Shown here: piece by piece, positions 1,360 through 43,390 of the stretch | Layout of the letters: the number at the start of each line of letters is the position of its first letter | How positions within the stretch are numbered: position 1 is the stretch's first letter | Virus record (IMG/VR): IMGVR_UViG_3300030339_000087 | Location: 1-43,390 of that record | Source: a virus | Strand: one strand, 5' to 3' | Length of the DNA stretch: 43,390 nt | The notes under the pieces: model-generated | What the model saw: the letters and a program-made list of their open reading frames with translations, nothing else | What the model was told of the DNA's origin: nothing | The model's database searches: none | Program-made: the position numbers and the translations under genes

Positions 1360-1791
1360 ATGGACTTATCAAATCTCGGCCCATCAGCAGCGGCAGTCGC
1401 TATGGCAGTCATCTTTCTGAGATATATTCAGAGTAAAGATGTGAGCCAAACAAAACGTGATGAGCTTTTTGCTAAGTCTTTAGAGAAAAATACAGATGCT
1501 ATGCAAGCTGTCGCCAAGGCAACCAAACAGGGGAATAAAGAAGCCAAAGAACGTAATGGACATCTAGGAGAGCAGAACATCCAACTTGCGAGTATGCTCC
1601 ATATCCAAACAGCACAACTAACAGGAATTGGCGACACGCTTAAATCTTCCGCTGAAACTCTCAAAAAAGATACAAAGACCGCCCATGATGACACAAAGAC
1701 TGTTGCAGAAGTACTCGCTAACAATACCGAAGATGTGCGCCAAGGAACAGATGATGTTCGTGATGCCCTCATTCAAACTAGTTCAAGTTAA
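1360..1791 (+). CDS. Membrane-anchored coiled-coil protein, holin-like
   Basis: 143 residues. An N-terminal hydrophobic segment (about residues 6-22, AAAVAMAVIFL) is followed by a long, highly charged helical region rich in Lys, Asp, Gln and Thr (about 25-140) with heptad-like spacing. This layout, one N-terminal membrane helix plus a charged tail, resembles BhlA/UviB- or XhlA-type holin-associated proteins, and it lies directly upstream of a second one-helix protein and the endolysin. An SD-like GGAG lies about 11 bases before the ATG, which overlaps the stop of a 12-codon ORF. Lysis role is inferred from position and topology, not from a recognised family. Confidence 0.7.
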   Translation: MDLSNLGPSAAAVAMAVIFLRYIQSKDVSQTKRDELFAKSLEKNTDAMQAVAKATKQGNKEAKERNGHLGEQNIQLASMLHIQTAQLTGIGDTLKSSAETLKKDTKTAHDDTKTVAEVLANNTEDVRQGTDDVRDALIQTSSS

Positions 1792-1871: not shown

Positions 1872-2771
1872 ATGCTAAGAATTATAGATACCTCAAACTG
1901 GAAGGCAGATATCAACCTCAGCCAAGTATCAATAGACGGTGTGTACACTCGTGCTACCTACGGCACAAGCCAAGTAGACCCGAGCTGTGACCAAATCGTG
2001 CAGCAAGCTATCAACCTCGGTAAGGTCTGGGGAGTATATCACTTCGCTTGCAGTAACTTTAGTGACGCGGTAACTCAGGCTAATTTCTTTGTTGATAACT
2101 GCCTCGGGTATGTTGGTAAGGGTATGCTCGTCCTTGACTGGGAGCGTGAGAATAACGATGTATCGAATGTCGGTTGGGCGTTAGAATGGCTACGACACGT
2201 CTATGCTCGTACTGGTGTGCGTCCACTCATCTACATGTCACAAAGCGTCTTAAATGAAGCTGACTGGTCGCCTGTTTCACATGAGGACTACGGGCTTATT
2301 GTCGCTAATTACTGGTGGAATTATGACCGTATCAACGACTTTGGTGCAGACGCATTTCCTAACCCACAAGTAAACTGGGTAGCCCCTAACGGAGTGAATG
2401 TGCAGAATGTCATGTGGCAATTCACCTCTAGCGGTTATCTGAGCGGCTACGGTGGAGCGTTAGATTGTAACTGGTTCTACGGCGACGTTGCTATGTGGAA
2501 CGCCTACGCCAATGTCCTGACCGTACCAGTACCAGCCCCCGAGCAGACTACCCCAGCGCCATCGCCAGACCCAACACCTGTTGTTGAACCAGAACCTATC
2601 CCAGCTCCCGTGCCTGACCCTGTAGTTGTACCTGAGCCTGTACCAGAACCCGTAGTAACTGAACCAACTCCACCAAAAGTAATCGTACCCGACCCATCAG
2701 AGTACTACAAAATATGGCAACTACTAGTTGCTGCATTCAAGCGTTTCATAAAATATTTTAAGGAGGGATAG
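1872..2771 (+). CDS. Endolysin, GH25 muramidase
   Basis: 299 residues. Residues 1-210 are a glycoside hydrolase 25 domain: Asp6 in IIDTSNW, the catalytic pair in VLDWE (Asp89, Glu91), a Tyr/Trp-rich barrel and a C-terminal MWQFTSSG strand typical of the family. GH25 enzymes cut the MurNAc-GlcNAc bond of peptidoglycan. Residues about 218-275 are a Pro/Glu/Val linker with repeated PEP and PVP units. The last 20 residues form a cationic amphipathic helix (AAFKRFIKYFKEG) in place of a recognisable wall-binding domain. There is no signal peptide, so release depends on a holin; small membrane proteins flank the gene on both sides. The SD AAGGAG sits 5 bases before the ATG. Confidence 0.93.
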   Translation: MLRIIDTSNWKADINLSQVSIDGVYTRATYGTSQVDPSCDQIVQQAINLGKVWGVYHFACSNFSDAVTQANFFVDNCLGYVGKGMLVLDWERENNDVSNVGWALEWLRHVYARTGVRPLIYMSQSVLNEADWSPVSHEDYGLIVANYWWNYDRINDFGADAFPNPQVNWVAPNGVNVQNVMWQFTSSGYLSGYGGALDCNWFYGDVAMWNAYANVLTVPVPAPEQTTPAPSPDPTPVVEPEPIPAPVPDPVVVPEPVPEPVVTEPTPPKVIVPDPSEYYKIWQLLVAAFKRFIKYFKEG

Positions 2772-2772
2772 T

Positions 2773-2931
2773 ATGAAAGATTTTCTCAAATCATTACTTA
2801 GTCGAAAGTTCCTGCTCGCACTCAGCGCAGCACTCGTATTTGTCGCTAATAAGCAATATGACCAAGTTGTTATCGTTGTGCTCGGGTATCTCGGCGTCAA
2901 TGTCGCTGATGTAAAACTGAACGGCAAATAA
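2773..2931 (+). CDS. 52-residue membrane protein, candidate holin
   Basis: 52 residues with two hydrophobic stretches, about 14-25 (LLALSAALVFVA) and 32-46 (VVIVVLGYLGVNVA), separated by a short polar turn, and a basic N-terminus (MKDFLKSLLSRK). Small two-helix basic proteins next to endolysins are often class II holins. It starts one base after the endolysin stop with SD AAGGAGGG. Three membrane proteins now surround the muramidase, so which one makes the lethal hole cannot be told from sequence. Confidence 0.7.
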   Translation: MKDFLKSLLSRKFLLALSAALVFVANKQYDQVVIVVLGYLGVNVADVKLNGK

Positions 2932-3339
2932 GTGAATCGGCATCACGGTGTCGCTAAACGAAAAGAAAAACTGCCGTACTGCCCCACGCTCGGTGAACAT
3001 CACCTGAACTGGGAGGATAGGCATTTTAGAAGCACGTCAGAAAAACGCCTCCGAAATATGGGGGCGTTTGTTCTTCCACTCTGGCAAGCACCTCCTCCGA
3101 ATCACACACTTATCCACAGAAGCCTCGGCGAAACACCTCGACCAGCTCCCAGTGAGATATATGACATGATAGCCGTGGCACAAGAGGGTGGACTGTATCA
3201 GGTCTTAAACACCTTAGACAACCGCACAACTGACCATTACAGAAAGCAGTTATTTATCGCAGCTATGGATACAGACGAAGCTATCGGACGGCTCACACGA
3301 AAAATGTACCTAACGCCCCAAGAATTGAGAGGATTTTGA
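2932..3339 (+). CDS. Hypothetical protein, 135 aa
   Basis: The GTG start follows the previous stop codon (TAA) directly. The N-terminal third is rich in His, Arg and Lys (NRHHGVAKRKEK, then GEHHLNWEDRH) and the rest looks like a compact globular domain. I do not recognise the family. It ends in a TGATG overlap with the next gene, so it belongs to the rightward lysis/late operon. No strong SD is visible; translation may depend on coupling to the upstream membrane-protein gene. Confidence 0.65.
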   Translation: MNRHHGVAKRKEKLPYCPTLGEHHLNWEDRHFRSTSEKRLRNMGAFVLPLWQAPPPNHTLIHRSLGETPRPAPSEIYDMIAVAQEGGLYQVLNTLDNRTTDHYRKQLFIAAMDTDEAIGRLTRKMYLTPQELRGF

Positions 3340-3653
3340 TGCGTCTTAAAATGAACGGTGAGAAAATAGACACCTCACCAGAAAACACATTACTATTCAC
3401 GTTTGCAGGTGACTTAGCGATGTACAACTACGTGTATTTAGATGGAGAAAAATCATTTGCTCAGGTGTGGGAGCAAAGTACCAATGGAGAACTGTATAAA
3501 AAGCTCGCCAAAGAAGCTATCGAAGGGAAATACCCGACACACCAAAACCTCACCGTTCTACTAGAAGATGACCGCACAGCGTATGAGCAAATGGCTCTCA
3601 AAGACGTAGCCAGATTAAACGCAGTTCCTATTGGGTGGCAAAAAAAACATTAA
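3339..3653 (+). CDS. Hypothetical protein, 104 aa
   Basis: I take the ATG overlapping the upstream TGA (TGATG) rather than a TTG three bases earlier. The product is a soluble, mildly basic protein of 104 residues with aromatic-rich first half (FTFAGDLAMYNYVYLDGEKSF) and a helical second half. No family recognised. It sits between a hypothetical gene and the exonuclease in the same operon, so a role in DNA or nucleotide metabolism late in infection is possible but unsupported. Confidence 0.65.
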   Translation: MRLKMNGEKIDTSPENTLLFTFAGDLAMYNYVYLDGEKSFAQVWEQSTNGELYKKLAKEAIEGKYPTHQNLTVLLEDDRTAYEQMALKDVARLNAVPIGWQKKH

Positions 3654-3662
3654 AAAGGGGGA

Positions 3663-4418
3663 ATGATGGATGGGGTTAGAACATTACTCTATGACTTAGA
3701 GGTATCACCAATGTTAGCGTGGGCCTATGGGCCATCGTATGAAACCAGACTCTTAAAAATAGAACAGTACCAAAAGATTATGAGCATATCGTGGCGGTGG
3801 CTCGGAGATAAGAAAATCCAGCACATGAGCCTGAAGAACCACGAACAAATAGAAATAGACACAAAGATACGTGACTTACTTGATGAAGCTGACATAGCCG
3901 TAGCACATAACGGGAAACGTTTTGATGACCGCATCTCTAGGGGTGCATTTTTAGTTGCGGGGTTGAAACCGCCCAGCCCATTCAAAAATGTTGATACAAA
4001 GATAATGGCAAAACAAATCGGCATGTTCCCAAGTAACAGTTTAAATGATTTGTGTGAGATGTTCGGCTTCGGCACAAAGACAAAAGAAACCTACGCCGAC
4101 CTCTGGTACGAAGCTTTTGTCCACCATGATAATAAATCATGGAATAAGATGCGGATTTATAACGACCAAGACGTTGCCCTGCTCACCGTTCTGTATGAAA
4201 AACTACTCCCGTACTTCAACACACACCCAAATGTCGCTAACATAGCAGGAAAGATAGATGCCTGTCCGAAATGCGGTGGTACACGATTACATAGTCGAGG
4301 AGTACGGAAGACCAACGCCTCAACATTCAGGAGATACCAGTGTCAGGACTGTGGCGGGTGGTGTACTGGCACACAAGCAATCAAATTAAAGAAAGTAGAG
4401 TTCACGAACTACTCATGA
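3663..4418 (+). CDS. RNase H-fold 3'-5' exonuclease (DEDDy type) with C-terminal zinc ribbon
   Basis: About 250 residues. The three exonuclease motifs are all present: Exo I YDLEVSP (Asp11, Glu13), Exo II AHNGKRFDD (His82-Asp88) and Exo III YNDQD (Tyr166, Asp170), with a DTK helix between. This is the DEDDy ribonuclease H-like fold of YprB-like and DNA polymerase proofreading exonucleases. A zinc ribbon CPKC...CQDC (Cys201, 204, 227, 230) follows. There is no polymerase domain, so it is a free-standing nuclease, possibly for processing or degrading DNA or RNA ends. The SD AAAGGGGG precedes two consecutive ATGs; either could be used. Located in the late rightward operon after lysis genes. Confidence 0.85.
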   Translation: MMDGVRTLLYDLEVSPMLAWAYGPSYETRLLKIEQYQKIMSISWRWLGDKKIQHMSLKNHEQIEIDTKIRDLLDEADIAVAHNGKRFDDRISRGAFLVAGLKPPSPFKNVDTKIMAKQIGMFPSNSLNDLCEMFGFGTKTKETYADLWYEAFVHHDNKSWNKMRIYNDQDVALLTVLYEKLLPYFNTHPNVANIAGKIDACPKCGGTRLHSRGVRKTNASTFRRYQCQDCGGWCTGTQAIKLKKVEFTNYS

Positions 4419-7867: not shown

Positions 7868-8620
7868 TTAAAGTTCTTTCAGATTATTGAGAGCTTTGGT
7901 TAGCTCTTCGGTTACTTGGTAGGTCTTACCACCAATGTTTATTGTTGGTGGCGTTTCCGCTTCTTTTTCTTCGATGTCGTTTATCTCGTAATCACCAAGT
8001 ACGTATTGAGCTTCCCAATAATCAGTACCCATTTGGTCTGTGACATTCGTAATTTTTCCAGTGTCATCTCCACCGATAAACCAGCCCTTTATGTATGCTT
8101 TTTTATCGCAGACCCGAGCATTGCCATAGACCCGAGCATCGCCATAGACCTGAGCATCGCCATAGACCTGAGCATTGCCATAGACCCGAGCATCGCCATA
8201 GACCTGAGCATCGCCATAGACCTGAGCATTGCCATAGACCCGAGCATCGCCATAGACCCGAGCATTGCCATAGACCTGAGCATTGCCATAGACCCGAGCA
8301 TTGCCATAGACCTGAGCATTGCCATAGACCCGAGCATCGCCATAGACCCGAGCATTGCCATAGACCTGAGCATCGCCATAGACCCAAGCATTGCCAGAGA
8401 CCCGAGCATTGCCATAGACCTGAGCATCGCCATAGACCCAAGCATTGCCAGAGACCCGAGCATCGCCATTACTTAGTTTTTCACTCTCAACAAATCCACC
8501 CTTTTCGCCTTTTTTCACACCACGTTCAGGAATGTCTACAGTTGCTTCTATGCGGAAAAGCTTTACGCCCCACGCATTTATTTTGGTTTCAGTGGTAAGT
8601 TTAAATTTATATTCTGACAT
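7868..8620 (-). CDS. Hexapeptide-repeat (left-handed beta-helix) protein
   Basis: 250 residues in three parts. Residues 1-51 form a small N-terminal domain with the signature KKGEKGGFVESE seen ahead of such repeats in phage and plasmid proteins. Residues 52-171 are exactly 20 copies of [ND]A[RQW]V[YS]G, the pattern of a left-handed parallel beta-helix with a small residue and a Val at each turn. Residues 172-250 are a mixed, acidic C-terminal domain. No transferase active-site loop is visible, so it is more likely structural or binding than enzymatic. SD AAGGAG; TAATG overlap with the upstream 35-residue gene. Part of the short operon started by the promoter at 8.82 kb. Confidence 0.8.
   Translation of the reverse strand: MSEYKFKLTTETKINAWGVKLFRIEATVDIPERGVKKGEKGGFVESEKLSNGDARVSGNAWVYGDAQVYGNARVSGNAWVYGDAQVYGNARVYGDARVYGNAQVYGNARVYGNAQVYGNARVYGDARVYGNAQVYGDAQVYGDARVYGNAQVYGDAQVYGDARVYGNARVCDKKAYIKGWFIGGDDTGKITNVTDQMGTDYWEAQYVLGDYEINDIEEKEAETPPTINIGGKTYQVTEELTKALNNLKEL
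8108..8467 (-). repeat. Tandem 18-bp repeat, 20 units
   Basis: 360 bases made of 20 in-frame 18-bp units coding the hexapeptide tract. Units differ almost only at codon 1 (AAT/GAT, Asn/Asp) and codon 3 (CGG, CAG or TGG for Arg, Gln, Trp), plus Tyr/Ser in two. Such an array can gain or lose whole turns of the beta-helix by slippage. All reading frames are open across it, which creates spurious ORFs on both strands. Confidence 0.95.
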
Positions 8621-8844: not shown

Positions 8845-9029
8845 GAGCTTTTCTTAGCTTTTATCATGCTCTTGTGGAAAAATACCTCAACTAAATCGCC
8901 CACACTAATATCTTTTCCCCAGTAGATAGCCTCCTCTCCTGTGTCAAGCAAAACATGCGTCCTGAAATAGGGCTTTCCAGCTTTGTCTGTGCGCGGTTCG
9001 ATGTGCTGTATCTCGATTACAGTCCTCAC
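8841..9029 (-). CDS. Hypothetical protein, 62 aa
   Basis: 62 residues, beta-rich by eye (VIEIQHIEPR, THVLLDTGEEAIYWG, GDLVEVFFHK) with a Lys-rich tail, compatible with a small OB- or SH3-like barrel. Overlaps the NinG stop by ATGA, so it may act with the recombination proteins. Its end overlaps the -35 of the next promoter. Family unknown. Confidence 0.7.
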   Translation of the reverse strand: MRTVIEIQHIEPRTDKAGKPYFRTHVLLDTGEEAIYWGKDISVGDLVEVFFHKSMIKAKKSS

Positions 9030-9574
9030 CGTTGGTAGTTCTCCTTATGTGCGAGGATATACTCAACTTCCTGTTTTGCGTCCGCTATTATCTGCAACAA
9101 CTCCGCTTTAGATGGGCGTTTGTAGGCTTCTGGGAGCTTTGAGAGCCGTTTTAGCTCCGCAACCGTAGCTTCACCGCATTTGAGCGCAAGACCCGTCTCA
9201 TAGCCTTTGAGCATGTCACCCTTGTCTCGCCATATATTGCAATGACGACACTGCAAATTGCAGTTATATTCATCAAAACGCAGCGAATAGACACCACGGG
9301 TGATGAAGTGACCATTATCCCAACCTTGTGACCATTTCCCATCACCTGAAAGAATGATTTGTGTGCGAGGGCAACTGATACACTCCCCCACCCAATCAGT
9401 ACCAGTAAATGAGCTATCGCGTAATCGAATGTACTTAGAGAGGGCATCATCAGCAGGTTTTATGAGCTGTTGTGCGGTTTTCTGGTCTAGTTTCTTCCGA
9501 ATGGGTGCTTTACCAAGTGGGAGGCGGGCTTTCATCTCGCGCACAATCTGTTGCTCTTTAGTTAGTTTTTTCAC
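9026..9574 (-). CDS. ninG: NinG-like (Rap) recombination endonuclease
   Basis: 182 residues matching the NinG/Rap family of lambdoid phages: a Lys-rich helical N-terminus, then Cys65-x2-Cys68 (CISC), the core WDNGHFITRG with His89, and NCNLQCRHCN (Cys105, Cys109, Cys112), which form the zinc/HNH-like centre, ending in a helical tail. In lambda, Rap is a structure-specific endonuclease that resolves recombination intermediates. It lies in one run with the ssDNA-binding protein and the RecB-like nuclease, which supports a recombination role. Start ATG at 9574 overlaps the 71-residue gene. Confidence 0.88.
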   Translation of the reverse strand: MKKLTKEQQIVREMKARLPLGKAPIRKKLDQKTAQQLIKPADDALSKYIRLRDSSFTGTDWVGECISCPRTQIILSGDGKWSQGWDNGHFITRGVYSLRFDEYNCNLQCRHCNIWRDKGDMLKGYETGLALKCGEATVAELKRLSKLPEAYKRPSKAELLQIIADAKQEVEYILAHKENYQR

Positions 9575-10698: not shown

Positions 10699-10983
10699 TT
10701 AATAATTATGGTCACATTTTTCTACAGCTTGGAAGTCCTCACGGTCTTTCATTGATAGGACATAGACTGTTCCCCTCCCATTTGGTTGTGTTTTACTGCT
10801 GCGTATCTTTTTTCCTGAGAACCAGTACCAGTCTGGGTACTTGTTGCACTTCACAAACTTAATCAGATAGTTCTCGGTATACTCAGTGACTTTCGATGTG
10901 CTGATTAGCACCTCATCAGTTGAGTACTTCGGCGAAAGTATGTCTGCAATGACTTTGTGCGGTTGATGTTTACAGAACTGCAT
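10699..10983 (-). CDS. Hypothetical protein, 94 aa
   Basis: 94 residues, basic, with aromatic clusters (YTENYLIKFVKC, YPDWYWFSGKK) and two Cys/His ends (FCKHQPHK; KCDHNY). No recognised fold. Start overlaps the end of the RecB-like nuclease gene, so it may be its partner. Confidence 0.7.
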   Translation of the reverse strand: MQFCKHQPHKVIADILSPKYSTDEVLISTSKVTEYTENYLIKFVKCNKYPDWYWFSGKKIRSSKTQPNGRGTVYVLSMKDREDFQAVEKCDHNY

Positions 10984-11785
10984 GGTCTTTCCACATTCCG
11001 TCGAATTGATGTATTACTTTCCCTTGAACTGTCCAGCCGTTCGCAACCATGATTCCCTCGTAGACTTGAAGCTGTTTCTTCCAGTACGGTTTGTCTTCTT
11101 TGTAGGCAATCTTGTAGTCCTCGATGATACAGGTCTTGTCCCCGACTATCTGTAGACGGTCTATCGTCCCTGCTCGCTTGTTCTTGTGGTCTACCACGAG
11201 GACTTCGTACTCAGCTTTTTCGTTCTCACGACCCACGTAGAAGCTCTCTACGATGTCTTTCAAGACAAGATGGTTCGGTGTGTGGTATTCCTTGTCTAGC
11301 GTCTTGGCAAGCCCCTGATACTTCCCGTAGAGTTCAAGAGCAAGATGTACGGTTGTGCCGAAGTCCCGAGAAACCTGCCCACTCAATGACCAGAGCTTTG
11401 CTATCTCTGTAGGGTCTGAGCCAGTTTTCTCTGCGACCTTTCCGCTTAACATCACTGAGTCAAACGGCTTCTGTTCGCCTTTGGCTATTTGTGAGGCGGA
11501 CGCATAGACTTCACCGTTCCACATATAGGTGTGGTTCACTTCATCATAGTCAATTTCCCCGCCCACAAACGCTTGCTTACGAACAAATTTGCCTGTTACC
11601 TTGCTCGACAACTCCCGACCTGGTTCTGAATACTGTTTTGATAACCCTGTGATGTATTCTAGGGCTACAGCTTTAGCTTCCTCTAGGCTATCACCAACTT
11701 CTATAGTGATTGTCGGCTGTAAATTGGAGTACTGTGCGGTGGCAATAGTAGCTCCGACTGTTATTTCTTTAACCTTGTATGACAT
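10970..11785 (-). CDS. RecB/Cas4-like PD-(D/E)XK nuclease
   Basis: 271 residues. The C-terminal two thirds show RecB-family motifs in order: TTVHLALE (His147), AGTIDR (Asp209), IIEDYK (Glu222-Asp223-Tyr-Lys225) and KKQLQVYE (Gln238, Tyr242). The first 45 residues (ITVGATIATAQYSNLQPTI then EEAKAVALEYI) are a beta-alpha module often found at the start of phage proteins of this kind. Such enzymes resect dsDNA ends or degrade host DNA. It lies in one operon with SSB and NinG. SD GGGAG. I see no recombinase gene beside it. Confidence 0.83.
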   Translation of the reverse strand: MSYKVKEITVGATIATAQYSNLQPTITIEVGDSLEEAKAVALEYITGLSKQYSEPGRELSSKVTGKFVRKQAFVGGEIDYDEVNHTYMWNGEVYASASQIAKGEQKPFDSVMLSGKVAEKTGSDPTEIAKLWSLSGQVSRDFGTTVHLALELYGKYQGLAKTLDKEYHTPNHLVLKDIVESFYVGRENEKAEYEVLVVDHKNKRAGTIDRLQIVGDKTCIIEDYKIAYKEDKPYWKKQLQVYEGIMVANGWTVQGKVIHQFDGMWKDHAVL

Positions 11786-14176: not shown

Positions 14177-14511
14177 AGTATACCGCCGTTGCCGTTGCCG
14201 TCGCCGTAGCCGTAGCCGTAGCCGTAGCCGTCGCCGTAGCCGTTGCCGTTGCCGTAGCCGTTGCCGTTGCCGTTGCCGTAGCCGTAGCCGTAGCCGTAGC
14301 CGTCGCCGTCGCCGTAGCCGTAGCCGTAGCCGTCGCCGTAGCCGTTGCCGTTGCCGTAGCCGTAGCCGTCGCCGTAGCCGTAGCCGTAGCCGTAGCCGTC
14401 GCCGTAGCCGTTGCCGTTGCCGTCGCCGTCGCCGTAGCCGTTCTTACTAGTACCATCTAACGACATAGGGCGTACTTCGTCTGCTGTATTAGCATTTCTA
14501 GCGTAGCTCAT
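14173..14511 (-). CDS. Low-complexity Gly-Tyr/Asp/Asn dipeptide-repeat protein
   Basis: 112 residues. After a 24-residue polar start, 42 Gly-X dipeptides run without a break (residues about 25-108), X being Tyr 22 times, Asn 11 and Asp 9, ending GGIL. Every Gly codon is GGC and every X codon is NAC. Gly/Tyr-rich tracts of this kind are disordered, and similar eukaryotic sequences phase-separate; whether this one does is speculation. There is no membrane segment. It is coupled by ATGA to the membrane-anchored 85-residue protein. Confidence 0.75.
   Translation of the reverse strand: MSYARNANTADEVRPMSLDGTSKNGYGDGDGNGNGYGDGYGYGYGYGDGYGYGNGNGYGDGYGYGYGDGDGYGYGYGYGNGNGNGYGNGNGYGDGYGYGYGYGDGNGNGGIL
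14188..14439 (-). repeat. Tandem 6-bp repeat, 42 units (GGCNAC)
   Basis: 252 bases of the unit GGCNAC on the coding strand, with N only T, G or A and never C (no His). Variation is limited to one base per unit. The array can change length by slippage without losing frame. Confidence 0.95.
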
Positions 14512-30343: not shown

Positions 30344-30424
30344 ATGAGACAGTACATCGAACGCTGCCAAAAATGTAAACCATTGTATTGGCCGAAAAAC
30401 TATTTAAATGGGAGGCACTGTTAA
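30344..30424 (+). CDS. 26-residue Cys-rich peptide
   Basis: MRQYIERCQKCKPLYWPKN...HC: a CxxC and a C-terminal HxC-like end that could hold a zinc ion. The ATG directly follows the upstream TAA (one base between). Its stop overlaps the next start (TAATG), and it contains the GGGAGG site of that gene. Confidence 0.5.
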   Translation: MRQYIERCQKCKPLYWPKNYLNGRHC

Positions 30425-32784
30425 TGAAAGTAGCACTAACTGTAATAGCAGCCGCAGGGTCAGATAAAGAAGCTGTCCAGCTTGCAACAATGCTTTCATC
30501 AGCTAATGGGCAGGTTGATAGAATATTCCTCCAATTGAACGCCCCTAAGGGAACTGAAATAAATAAGAAAATGAGAGCTGTTGCTGAACAGTTCGCAGAT
30601 GAAACGTTTGAGTATGTGTGGGAGGGAAACTTTACCAAAGCCCGTAATGACCTAATGAGCAAAGTCCCAAAAGAGTTTGACTGGATTATCTGGGCGGACG
30701 CTGATGATATTATTGACTGTCCTGAGAATATTCGCCCAACACTTGCAATCATGCCCGTAGATGTCCACGGGGTCTATATCAACTATGACTACCAGAAAGA
30801 TGAATTCGGTAATGTGATTGTCTCTCACTGGGTCACACGAGCTGTGCGCAATGATGGAAGCTTTAAGTGGAAGTCAAGTTTTGAGGACTCAGAAACCTCT
30901 GTCCATGAAACTCTGATTGCAACCAGACAAGTTAAATCAGTGGCGAATAATGAGTGGAAGATTGTCCACAACGCTACTCCTGAACACTTCAAAGAGTCCC
31001 TCGAACGAAACATCGGTATTCTTGAGGATATGGCAAGGCGACAAGCCCAATCAGATAAAGGTATTGACCCACGTATCATGTTCTACCTCGGCACCCACTA
31101 CAATGAAGCCTACAGGTTTAATGAAGCCTTTGATGTTTTGATTGAATACCTGAAAGTATCAGGTTGGTCAGAGGAACGAGCAGAAGCACATCTATTTATC
31201 GGACGCATTCTTAAGAATAAAGGTAAATCAATCCAAGCAAGAAATGCTTTTCTCCAAGCCCTTGGTGAGAACCCAAAGAGTATTGGTGCTTACTTAGAGC
31301 TCGGTAAACTTGAGTCAAAAGAAGAACGCTGGGAGCAAGCTGCTGAGTGGCTTAAACGTGGTGTTGAACAAGACCGCCCCATCACACCAATGGTCAAGTA
31401 TGATAACGATTTTGAGCTGTATACTGAGTACGCCCAGGCTTTATCCAACTTAGGTGGTAAAAACCTGTCAGAAGCCCTCAGAATGGCTCAGGAAGCATTT
31501 AAACTTCGTCCGTATGATGAGCAAGCCAAAGACAATCGTGATGTTATTCAAAAACTCGTAAACTACCGTGATAATCTGCGCTCATTCAACACCTTATTTA
31601 AGACGTTACGAGAAGAAGACAAACCTATTATCCCCTTCCTTGACACTTTGCCTGATATGATACAAGACTCTAGCCCTGTCATTTCAGCACGTCAACAGTA
31701 CACAGAGGGCAAAACTTGGACAGAAAACTCCATTGCTATTTATGTAGGCTACGGAGCACTTGGAATCTGGGGACCATGGTCACTCGATGAAGGTGGTATT
31801 GGTGGGTCAGAAGAAGCAGTTATCCGATTAAGTAAAGAACTCACTGCTATGGGCTGGGCTGTCACTGTCTTCGGAGTACCTGGCAAACGAGCAGGGTTGA
31901 TTGATGGGGTTGAATGGAAGCAGTACTGGGAAATTAGTAATAAGGATAGCTTCAATATCCTGATTAGTTGGCGACAACCTGGCCTCTTTGATAACAAATG
32001 GGACGCAAAGAAAACCTACCTATGGTTGCACGATGTTATGGACGCAGAGGAACTTGTCCCTGAACGGCTGGAAAACATCACCAAGATAATCTACGTTTCA
32101 AAGTACCACTCAGAACGACCAGAAAACGAACATATTGCGAACAAACAAAAACTCCCATCAGGCAACGGGATAGACCCTAGTACATTTACGAAGTACGACG
32201 GAACCTTGGAACGCGACCCACACCGAGTTATTTACATGTCAGCTAATGAGCGGGGGCTGAGAATCCTCATTGATATTTGGAAAGATGTTCTTGAGGCGGT
32301 GCCTGGCGCAATCCTCACACCATACTATGGGTGGCAGAGCTTTGACGCAGTCAACCGTGATAACCCTGAACGTATGGCATGGAAAGCAACCCTATTAGCT
32401 AGAATGCGCGAACTTGGTATCCCTGCGAGTACTCGACTAGGACATGATGACCTGAATAAAGAAATGTTTAAGTCTGGTGTCTGGGCATATCCATGCTTCT
32501 TCCCTGAGGTAAACTGTATTACTGCTCAAAAAGCGATGGCTTCTGGTGCATGGCCTGTTACATCCAACTTTGCAGCATTACGTGATGTCGTAAAATATGG
32601 TGACGTAATTGATATGGATGACTTCACAGAGGAAGACATAGAAACGTACAAACAAGCACTCATACTCAGATTGCAAAATCCACCCACCGAAACAGAGCGA
32701 ACTGAGATGATGGAATGGGCGCGAAAGACTTACGACTGGAAAAATACCGCACAACAATGGCATAAAGAATTTAAGAAAGGGTAA
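30424..32784 (+). CDS. Multidomain glycosyltransferase: GT2 - TPR - GT4-like
   Basis: 786 residues from ATG 30424 (GGGAGG upstream; an earlier TTG is less likely). Residues 1-200: a GT-A domain of GT2 type, with the FTKARNDLM helix and the metal-binding WADADD (91-95). Residues about 205-400: TPR-like helical repeats (FYLGTHYNEAYRFNEAFDVLIEYLK, AHLFIGRILKNKGKSIQARNAFLQAL is a further unit). Residues about 430-786: a GT-B, GT4-like domain with GGIGGSEEAVIRLSKEL and a C-terminal FPEVNCITAQKAMASGAWPV. Two catalytic domains in one chain suggest stepwise transfer of two sugars. Its place after the capsid gene suggests modification of virion proteins. Confidence 0.85.
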   Translation: MKVALTVIAAAGSDKEAVQLATMLSSANGQVDRIFLQLNAPKGTEINKKMRAVAEQFADETFEYVWEGNFTKARNDLMSKVPKEFDWIIWADADDIIDCPENIRPTLAIMPVDVHGVYINYDYQKDEFGNVIVSHWVTRAVRNDGSFKWKSSFEDSETSVHETLIATRQVKSVANNEWKIVHNATPEHFKESLERNIGILEDMARRQAQSDKGIDPRIMFYLGTHYNEAYRFNEAFDVLIEYLKVSGWSEERAEAHLFIGRILKNKGKSIQARNAFLQALGENPKSIGAYLELGKLESKEERWEQAAEWLKRGVEQDRPITPMVKYDNDFELYTEYAQALSNLGGKNLSEALRMAQEAFKLRPYDEQAKDNRDVIQKLVNYRDNLRSFNTLFKTLREEDKPIIPFLDTLPDMIQDSSPVISARQQYTEGKTWTENSIAIYVGYGALGIWGPWSLDEGGIGGSEEAVIRLSKELTAMGWAVTVFGVPGKRAGLIDGVEWKQYWEISNKDSFNILISWRQPGLFDNKWDAKKTYLWLHDVMDAEELVPERLENITKIIYVSKYHSERPENEHIANKQKLPSGNGIDPSTFTKYDGTLERDPHRVIYMSANERGLRILIDIWKDVLEAVPGAILTPYYGWQSFDAVNRDNPERMAWKATLLARMRELGIPASTRLGHDDLNKEMFKSGVWAYPCFFPEVNCITAQKAMASGAWPVTSNFAALRDVVKYGDVIDMDDFTEEDIETYKQALILRLQNPPTETERTEMMEWARKTYDWKNTAQQWHKEFKKG

Positions 32785-32788
32785 CAAA

Positions 32789-32968
32789 ATGGAAAAAGCA
32801 TTTGACCAAGGTCGCCGTTACGAGCGCACCGAAGTTGTCGAGATGCTCAAACAAATACAAACAATGCCCACAGAACAATTTCCTATACTCCTCAAAACAT
32901 GGGAGCAGGAACTAACAGAAAGTCTCATACCAGTTATAGAAATTCAGGAAACATATGTCATCACTTAA
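32789..32968 (+). CDS. Hypothetical protein, 59 aa
   Basis: Small helical acidic protein (MEKAFDQGRRYERTEVVEML, then FPILLKTWEQELTESLIPVI). Starts 4 bases after the large glycosyltransferase and overlaps the next one by 14 bases, so it is translated with them. Family unknown. Confidence 0.6.
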   Translation: MEKAFDQGRRYERTEVVEMLKQIQTMPTEQFPILLKTWEQELTESLIPVIEIQETYVIT

Positions 32969-33908
32969 GATTGCCTTTGTTTGGGACTGGGAACCTCAGA
33001 TAGAACAGACGGCAACATGGGAAGATGGTCTTGCAGGTGCACTTAAGGAGTTGATGAAACGAGGACATGAAGTTGGTATATTCATGCCAGATACTAGCAA
33101 CTACGTTATCCATCACCCCTACTTTGATATACAAGTGTGCGAAAATTTGCCTGTTATCGTCCACGCATGGAAACCTGATGTAATCTTATGTTGGGGTGAT
33201 TTTACTCGCCCTAATGCCCAACCGCTCAGAGAGTTAAATGTCCCTATGGCAATCTGTTTTGCTGGGGGTGAGGCTGATACCTACAACACACCATACTTTG
33301 ACCATATATTTGTTGAGAGCGTGATTTATAAAACAAAACTCAAAGATGCTGGATATGATAATGTCTCTATTGCCTTCGGAACGAACACTGATAGGTTCAC
33401 ACCCATCAAACAAAACAAACGCTTTGATACAATCTTTCCTGCGACATTTGCTGCGTGGAAGCGACATGACCTCTACGCTCAAGCAACAGGTGGTTTAAAC
33501 GCTCTTGCCGTAGGGTATATGTATTCTGACCATGAGCAGGAGTGCTGGCAGGTCTGCGTAGATAGGGGTGTGACGGTTTTACCTCACACATCAGCTCCCG
33601 TCCTTCAGTACCTCTACGCAGCTAGTCGGGTCTGTGTCATTCCCTCAAGGAGTGATGGCGGCTCACAACGAACAGTCCTAGAAGCAATGGCAATGAACCT
33701 CCCTGTGATTGTGTGCGATTCGGATAAGTTCGATTTCGCCCAAGACCTCGTGTACCGTGCAGAACCTACCGCAGAGAGTATCAAAGGCTACCTCGCTGCT
33801 CTATTAGACGGGGAACACGAAGCCAATACACGAGACTACATATTAGAAAACTGGTCACACATTCAATACGCCGATAGTTTAGAAAAGGGATTATATGAAA
33901 TCATTTAG
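32955..33908 (+). CDS. Glycosyltransferase, GT4-like
   Basis: 317 residues, GT-B fold by pattern: N-terminal KIAFVWDWEPQ and KRGHEVGIFMPD, a linker region HIFVESVIYKTKLKDAGYDNV, then FPATFAAWKRHDLYAQA and the C-terminal signature VIPSRSDGGSQRTVLEAMAMNLPVIV with the Glu of the donor-binding E-x7-E-like motif. Retaining transferases of this type use nucleotide-sugar donors. Second of three in the operon. ATG overlaps the neighbour; the C-terminus overlaps the third transferase. Confidence 0.85.
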   Translation: MSSLKIAFVWDWEPQIEQTATWEDGLAGALKELMKRGHEVGIFMPDTSNYVIHHPYFDIQVCENLPVIVHAWKPDVILCWGDFTRPNAQPLRELNVPMAICFAGGEADTYNTPYFDHIFVESVIYKTKLKDAGYDNVSIAFGTNTDRFTPIKQNKRFDTIFPATFAAWKRHDLYAQATGGLNALAVGYMYSDHEQECWQVCVDRGVTVLPHTSAPVLQYLYAASRVCVIPSRSDGGSQRTVLEAMAMNLPVIVCDSDKFDFAQDLVYRAEPTAESIKGYLAALLDGEHEANTRDYILENWSHIQYADSLEKGLYEII

Positions 33909-34590
33909 CATTCTCACAGTTTCTAAAAGAACTGGGTGGGAGCAAATGGCTGCCCAATCTATTAAGAGACAAACTGTTCAACCTAAACACTGGATTGTCG
34001 TCCTAGAAGATGAGCCTAACTGGACTGTCTGGCAGGGTGAAGTCCTCGGCGACGCACACATCATCAAAGCCCCAGAGAAACTAAAACCGTCTAACCTCAA
34101 CGCTTCTCTGAATGCTGGGCTCAAGGTAATCGACACAGACTATGTTATTTTTTATCAAGACTTTATAGAACTACAGGAGGACTGCTTTGAAAATCTCTTA
34201 GCCCTCTCAGACAAAAGAACATTTGTTACTACATGTACTCCTAACTATGATGGTTCTGATGACGGTAGGTACCTCGGTATTGACCTGCCTCGTCCCTGCC
34301 GACCAGAAGAATGGGAGGCTAATGTCAGTTGTGCTCCCATGCGGTTTATTCGTGAGCTTGGTGGTTTTGAAGAAGAACTAGATTTTGGTTGGTCATGGGA
34401 TAACGTCAACGTCGCAGAACGGGCAGCAATGCTTGGAGCTAAATTCACTCTCGACGAAAGTAACCGACCCAAACTCTATCCCCATGAAATGAGCTCACAT
34501 AAGACCATACCATTGAATGCGGAGCGACATAGCCGTATAATGCAGGATATACGGGACGGTAAACGCCCGATAAAAAACACATATCTATGA
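33895..34590 (+). CDS. Glycosyltransferase, GT2-like
   Basis: 231 residues. Starts SFSILTVSKR and has WEQMAAQSIKRQT (QSI.RQT motif of GT2), WIVVLEDEPNW, LNASLNAGL and a YVIFYQDFIEL stretch at the position of the DxD loop, then GGFEEELDFGWSWDNV as acceptor-site segment. Typical small GT2 enzyme. Overlaps both neighbours. Third sugar transferase of the cluster. Confidence 0.83.
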   Translation: MKSFSILTVSKRTGWEQMAAQSIKRQTVQPKHWIVVLEDEPNWTVWQGEVLGDAHIIKAPEKLKPSNLNASLNAGLKVIDTDYVIFYQDFIELQEDCFENLLALSDKRTFVTTCTPNYDGSDDGRYLGIDLPRPCRPEEWEANVSCAPMRFIRELGGFEEELDFGWSWDNVNVAERAAMLGAKFTLDESNRPKLYPHEMSSHKTIPLNAERHSRIMQDIRDGKRPIKNTYL

Positions 34591-41963: not shown

Positions 41964-43390
41964 ATGTCAGCTAATACGATTCTTACCTCAATAGTTACGG
42001 GTGGTGCAAATAATCACACCACTACTGCCGAAGAAGCTAATGCCTTTCCAACAGATTTTGTATCTGCGGGTGTTGTGGGCGCGATTACTGCTAACACTGG
42101 TTCAGGTGGGACAGGTAGTTTCACCGTAAACCAAGATACCTCACCCGACATGGGCATTACAATTAAAGCAGGACAAGCCTACATCTCAGCTATCCCATCT
42201 TCTCAGGGTACCCAAGTACTCCGTGCAAGAGCTGCCGCTGATTATACTGCCTATACCATTAATGCCAACGCCTCAGGTTCAACCAAGTATGACTGGATTT
42301 ACCTCAAAGTAGACCCGACCAATGCGAACGTCCCTTCGGCTGCGGCTGATAATGTGACCTCAATTTATACTTCTCGCTCAAGTTCAAACTCTGTCGATAA
42401 CGGTACACCTCCTACCTATGGACTAGTTTTAGGTGTGGTGACGGTAGCGAACGGTGCAAGCTCAATCACAAATGGAAACATCATAGATAAGAGAGTTTCT
42501 GCTAGTGTGAGCGCCAATACATCTGGTACGAGTTCAACCTTCTCTCCTTTATCTACGACTATCACCGCTGTCACTGCTAATGGGAACAGGTCGTATTCGC
42601 TCACATCCTCAGCTGATGTGTCGGCTATCCTCTCTCCTGGCATGAGACTGATGACTACCAGAACAGTCGTAGCTCCCACACAATGTACTTCTCTAAACGG
42701 TACAACTCAGTACTACTCTAAGACTTCTCCATCTGGTATGACGTTTACTAATAACTTCGTCGTAGCTGTAGCAGCGAAACCAAGTGCCTATCAGCAAGGG
42801 ATGTTAGCATCTCGATATAACGGGACGAGTGGCTGGTACATGCAACAACTTTCAACCGGACAAGTAGAGTTTACTGCTTTCAATGCCGGAGCCTCTAACT
42901 TCTTTAAGCTCACATCATATCAATCTGTTGCTCTAAATAAGTGGGCAAACAACATCGTAGGCCAAATGGATATGACAGTGACAACCAACACCCCAACCAC
43001 TAACTATATGATGCTTGATGGGGCAGATATTCCGTGTGTTGCTACGAGGGGAGGTACAAATCCAACCGCACTCGTACAAGCTGGTAACTTAGAAATTGGC
43101 TCCTACAATGGCGGTTCACTGCCCTATGCTGGCAAAATTGCTCAAGTTGCAATCTTCAACGCTAAGGTCACTCAAGCTACTATGCGTGGCTACATATCGC
43201 AGGGTCTAGCTGGCACAGAAACCTCCCTCATCTCAGCCTACTCATTCAACAATGCAATTACTGACCTCAACACCACAAACGCTAACAACCTCACAGCTAA
43301 CGGTTCAGCCGTAGCTACGAACGCAGACAGCCCATTTGGTGGACAAGCTAACGGCACAATCAGCTCAACTTTAGATTACGGCATCGTTCA
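41964..43390 (+). CDS. Tail fibre / receptor-binding protein, 5' part (LamG domain, variant B)
   Basis: ATG 41964, open to the end of the window (475 codons), so no stop is seen. Residues 1-200 form an N-terminal part with NHTTTAEEANAFPTDFV and AGQAYISAIPSSQG..LRARAAADY, a beta-rich anchor/shaft ending VTANGNRSYSLTSSADVS. A LamG-like domain follows: FVVAVAAKPSAYQQGMLAS, NKWANNIVGQM, LEIGSYNGGSLPYAGKIAQVAIFN. It replaces the variant A domain of bases 123-696 between identical DNA arms. The leader is A-rich without an SD. Likely the same gene as 1-1317 in another allele, or a tandem paralogue. Confidence 0.85.
   Translation, partial: MSANTILTSIVTGGANNHTTTAEEANAFPTDFVSAGVVGAITANTGSGGTGSFTVNQDTSPDMGITIKAGQAYISAIPSSQGTQVLRARAAADYTAYTINANASGSTKYDWIYLKVDPTNANVPSAAADNVTSIYTSRSSSNSVDNGTPPTYGLVLGVVTVANGASSITNGNIIDKRVSASVSANTSGTSSTFSPLSTTITAVTANGNRSYSLTSSADVSAILSPGMRLMTTRTVVAPTQCTSLNGTTQYYSKTSPSGMTFTNNFVVAVAAKPSAYQQGMLASRYNGTSGWYMQQLSTGQVEFTAFNAGASNFFKLTSYQSVALNKWANNIVGQMDMTVTTNTPTTNYMMLDGADIPCVATRGGTNPTALVQAGNLEIGSYNGGSLPYAGKIAQVAIFNAKVTQATMRGYISQGLAGTETSLISAYSFNNAITDLNTTNANNLTANGSAVATNADSPFGGQANGTISSTLDYGIV

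Follow-up and report, generated by a model that had tools for sequence, protein, structure and literature searches.

Two LamG receptor-domain versions at the ends of an uncultured phage contig, probably alleles of a single fibre gene

The fibre locus and its neighbours

The window analysed was the whole of IMG/VR virus record IMGVR_UViG_3300030339_000087 (43,390 bases), and parts of a fibre gene were found at both of its ends. The end fragments share one reading frame: the open reading frame at 41964-43388 leaves the right end open, while that at 1-1317 enters from the left. Joining the contig ends gives a single open gene of 640 codons with the left-end version of its LamG segment (v1) or 652 codons with the right-end version (v2). 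The window was searched for further fibre or LamG sequence and the two ends were found to hold the only ones.

At the right end the fibre (plus strand throughout) begins with an N-terminal anchor (codons 1-202; 41964-42569), which is common to the backbone relatives G001, G002, L083, L084 and L085; residues 1-187 are ~62% identical in G001 and G002, and identity over the anchor is 46-52% in L083-L085. An AlphaFold model of the N-terminal fragment was poor (pLDDT <50 for residues 1-191). The anchor is followed by the right-end copy of a conserved left arm, arm A (42570-42727), by v2 together with a diverged downstream shoulder (42728-43301; Pfam Laminin_G_3 at 42699-43178, E = 5.3e-07) and by the right-end copy of a right arm, arm B (43302-43390), at which the contig ends. 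The left end of the window repeats this arrangement with arm A (1-158), v1 and its diverged shoulder (159-696; Laminin_G_3 at 130-582, E = 1.6e-20) and arm B (697-785), and continues into the C-terminal part of the fibre (786-1317), of which there is one assembled copy only. Residues 263-310 of the left fragment are conserved among relatives and the rest of the C-terminal part is variable.

Dit-like and Gp37-like tail genes precede the LamG fibre, and the endolysin lies beside it. A small protein (1360-1791, plus strand), with a weak relative directly 3' of the fibre in L031, occupies a holin-like position between the fibre and a GH25 endolysin (1872-2771, plus strand; Pfam Glyco_hydro_25), and the same order of fibre, small gene and endolysin is present in the circular phage MW202692. 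The fibre thus encodes the recognition domain of a tail/fibre module, being LamG by Pfam and by fold and lying among tail genes; the domain type and position suggest a role for the locus in host range. Two possible recombination helpers are encoded on the minus strand, namely a NinG/Rap-type DNA-junction endonuclease (9026-9574) and a PD-(D/E)XK exonuclease (10970-11785); these putative helpers are consistent with homologous recombination.

Identical arms and divergent LamG cores

Exact string comparison confirmed the arms at the coordinates given in the initial annotation: bases 1-122 equal 42570-42691 (122 bases) and bases 697-785 equal 43302-43390 (89 bases). The left-arm identity is in fact longer than had been claimed, extending to base 158 (42727) with one C/T difference at base 123. 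Chance cannot explain exact identity across stretches of 122 and 89 bases. Between the arms lie 574 bases at the left end and 610 bases at the right, both in frame, and the left version was indeed 12 codons shorter, as previously noted.

It had also been claimed that the two ends encode clearly different LamG domains, and this was the case, with Laminin_G_3 matched in both. Across the core, taken as codons 53-232 of the left-end fragment, identity between v1 and v2 is 59% for DNA and 54% for protein; several indels separate them and dS is ~1.7, so that synonymous sites are saturated, while dS in the arms is 0 to 0.12. The core had matches at 11/36 fourfold-degenerate sites and the arms at 52/57 (Fisher P = 1e-9); the v1/v2 flanks can be compared over ~250 bases only, within which the arms are 99-100% identical. 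In the shoulder 5' of arm B (codons 210-232) the protein is 91% identical but dS is 1.28, indicating that the diverged tract reaches past the LamG fold and ends at base 697. These sharp boundaries point to v1 and v2 being an old allele pair produced by recombinational replacement rather than by point mutations arising in situ.

The AlphaFold model of the v1 fragment had a mean pLDDT of 90.4, and its fold matched pentraxins, LamG and neurexin LNS domains; the predicted fold is consistent with binding of a surface glycan or protein. In a tree of LamG cores v1 and v2 fell in different halves, but the forks were open and weakly supported and the tree was set aside as proof of allele origin.

Fibre genes in related phages

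Megablast and distant blastn searches against annotated phages gave no matches, an exact search of the available viral contigs with arm B found no near-identical genome, and the Gp37-like tail protein used as a query found no relatives. Comparison was made at the level of loci with 22 LamG-fibre relatives drawn from the viral collection. In these the LamG fibre is one intact ORF of ~490-630 codons, and except in the weakest relative, L047, this ORF can be aligned with each of the two window fragments. Two complete LamG fibres were found in none of the 22.

By capsid protein the closest relatives are G001 and G002 (major capsid protein 77% and 70% identical). Gene order is largely retained in both, and each has a single fibre, made up of the anchor seen in the window and a different, non-LamG remainder. 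G002 is 42,650 bases long and has a non-repetitive end overlap of 123 bases, as in a circle, with a single fibre. A 127-base end overlap in G001 was dropped as evidence of circularity, as it falls in a tandem repeat. A scan with the N-terminal anchor identified one fibre in L083, two tandem fibre genes in each of L084 (7989-10186) and L085 (7986-10056), and three anchor-sharing genes in the LamG phage L042 (3851-7344). The tandem genes have the N-terminal anchor alone in common (~70-74% DNA identity), their C-termini being unrelated, and neither a second LamG gene nor near-identical flanks were found in the paralogue sets of L042, L084 and L085.

A comparison bearing on exchange was that with L029 (record G007, IMGVR_UViG_3300037076_000064), whose DNA is 84-86% identical to the window around arm A (67-179, including a 113-base island at 84%), 82% over 609-926, which contains the left-end copy of arm B, and 91% at 43230-43390. 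Matching fourfold sites numbered 8/31 in the core (saturated), whereas the right-hand block had 35/46 (P = 2e-5) and arm A 13/23 (P = 0.03), and no other matches to the window were found in the 5.5 kb upstream of the L029 fibre. As the flanks are common to the window and L029 and the core is not, exchange by homologous recombination is supported. The initial annotation had proposed comparing related genomes for exchange limited to the LamG domain, and the same core-only replacement was thus found against L029. In both fourfold-site tests, v1/v2 and v1/L029, the diverged specificity segment was bordered on either side by conserved DNA, and exchange of the core alone between conserved flanks is therefore supported by two sequence comparisons. 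Over all relatives, mean fourfold identity in the flanks is only slightly higher (~0.40-0.43 compared to 0.27-0.37 in the core). A general claim of maintained anchors consequently draws its support chiefly from the v1/v2 and L029 pairs, and the broader proposal, that flank DNA is maintained as recombination anchors and that LamG cores are interchangeable cassettes among phages of unrelated backbone, with exchange repeatedly confined to one internal domain, is offered tentatively and considered unlikely.

At the right end of the L029 contig (7369-7587) an ATG (MDFNQTLTP) directly after the fibre stop leads into a second copy of arm B, and the final 127 bases of this second copy are the same as in the first; the fragment is either an incomplete tandem copy or an end made chimeric at an assembly k-mer.

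One gene with two alleles, and the alternatives

The contig is probably a circular or circularly permuted genome opened inside a single fibre gene, of which at least two LamG alleles, swapped by recombination, would exist in the sampled population. The genome would then be 42,569 bases with v1 or 42,605 bases with v2, the assembler having presumably passed through one allele at each contig end. A single gene is favoured by the open joined reading frame, by the presence of one LamG gene per relative, by the size and end overlap of G002 and by the gene order in MW202692; the two-allele reading also has in its favour that the alleles lie in frame between exact arms, that synonymous saturation ends at the arms, that L029 combines similar flanks with a core of its own, and that the record gave no match to a reverse transcriptase, integrase or resolvase. 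The circle of about 42.6 kb with recombination-swapped receptor alleles put forward in the initial annotation was accordingly the best supported reading. Both alleles would coexist in one population, in which phages may swap the LamG core by homologous recombination at the conserved flanks, perhaps aided by the exonuclease and the NinG-like nuclease, and a swap would be expected to alter the host surface recognised. The record is classed as linear by IMG/VR, which is expected where the ends differ.

Assemblers that have been used in JGI pipelines include MEGAHIT, run with k as high as 123, and metaSPAdes, run with k as high as 127. The left arm, at 122 bases, corresponds to k-1 for k=123, and repeated ends in the relatives are 123 and 127 bases long, so that the left end resembles a point at which the assembly graph forks into the alleles. 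An assembly break at k=123 does not account for the 89-base right arm, which counts against the two-allele reading; it may reflect a third allele or a gap in coverage.

The alternative raised initially, two tandem fibre genes per genome with different LamG domains and identical flanks, with the contig beginning inside the second gene, finishing inside the first and lacking the unassembled repeat between them, is judged quite unlikely. Anchor-sharing paralogues do exist in the backbone relatives L084 and L085 and in L042, and L029 ends in a partial second arm B directly after its fibre. The alternative was weakened, however, by the make-up of those paralogues, which combine a common anchor with unrelated C-termini and include neither two LamG genes nor near-identical flanks, by the single fibres of G001, G002 and L083, and by the lack of two full LamG fibres in any relative examined. 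Arms that are 99-100% identical would moreover demand either a very recent duplication followed by replacement of one core, or gene conversion.

A second alternative, that the other allele comes from a different phage species and was joined to the contig through a conserved arm during assembly, is very improbable. Flank DNA is 82-91% alike in related phages and could join assembly graphs, but the arms show no difference across 122 and 89 bases, whereas L029, the best match among other phages, is no more than 84-91% identical in these parts, which implies that any donor was nearly identical, that is, a strain of the same population.

Programmed variation, in which stored receptor cassettes are switched by inversion or a diversity-generating retroelement mutagenises the domain, would also place two variants at one locus between fixed arms, but is barely credible and was rejected (largely refuted for cassettes and enzymes encoded in the record), as no reverse transcriptase (RVT_1) and no tyrosine or serine recombinase (Phage_integrase, Resolvase) was matched in the record, no third LamG or template copy was found in the window, and saturated synonymous divergence with indels is unlike adenine-limited mutagenesis. 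The earlier exclusion of a retroelement for want of a reverse transcriptase was thereby upheld.

The two-allele reading can be set beside known systems. Carbohydrate-binding, tail-fibre, C1q and lectin-like genes are among the commonest identifiable genes of metaviromic islands (Mizuno et al. 2014, PMC3909814), and alleles, some at the level of domains, diverge down to 42-46% DNA identity in otherwise ~99% identical phages, with assemblers stopping at such regions (Bellas et al. 2020, PMC7468147). The present locus resembles these metaviromic and metagenomic islands in having highly diverged tail-fibre or lectin-like alleles at a host-recognition gene; unlike the islands, which are defined by read recruitment across samples, both alleles here lie in one contig, span one domain and were recognised from sequence alone. 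For T-even phages, recombination between conserved motifs is described as the means by which distal tail-fibre adhesins are swapped (Tetart et al. 1998, cited in PMC11414711). As far as that citing account goes, the likeness is the exchange of a specificity segment between conserved flanks by homologous recombination, and the difference is that the T-even adhesins are an unrelated protein of laboratory phages whereas a LamG domain is proposed here from sequence. In Ackermannviridae, tail-spike genes are exchanged via conserved 5' regions (PMC11414711); there too a conserved N-terminal part provides homology for gaining new receptor-binding parts, but whole C-termini or genes are exchanged, whereas the segment here is an internal domain bordered by homologous sequence at either end.

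Islands of host-recognition genes and adhesin swapping are thus already described, and what is new is a clean instance in an uncultured phage group. Two versions of the receptor domain, most likely from one gene, would fit the well-known carriage of several interchangeable host-recognition domains by wild phage populations. The group gains a defined receptor locus, and natural paired alleles that differ in one lectin-like domain only make specificity testable by domain. Receptor polymorphism of this kind also marks contigs, whose ends match at the arms and differ between them, and circularity tests based on end overlap miss such genomes.

In L049 a LamG fibre relative (2317-3921) is carried by a contig that binning assigned to Candidatus Saccharibacteria, which hints weakly that some of these phages may have a Patescibacteria host. 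Elsewhere in the window, glycosyltransferase-like genes follow the capsid gene (30388-34590); G001 retains them, G002 and L083 do so in part, and they possibly act in virion or host-surface glycosylation. An 18-base repeat in 20 copies (8110-8469), whose copy number may vary, lies within a YdcK-like beta-solenoid gene (7868-8620, minus strand), and a 6-base repeat (GCCGTA, ~43 copies; 14185-14441), open in several frames, is a candidate slippage locus.
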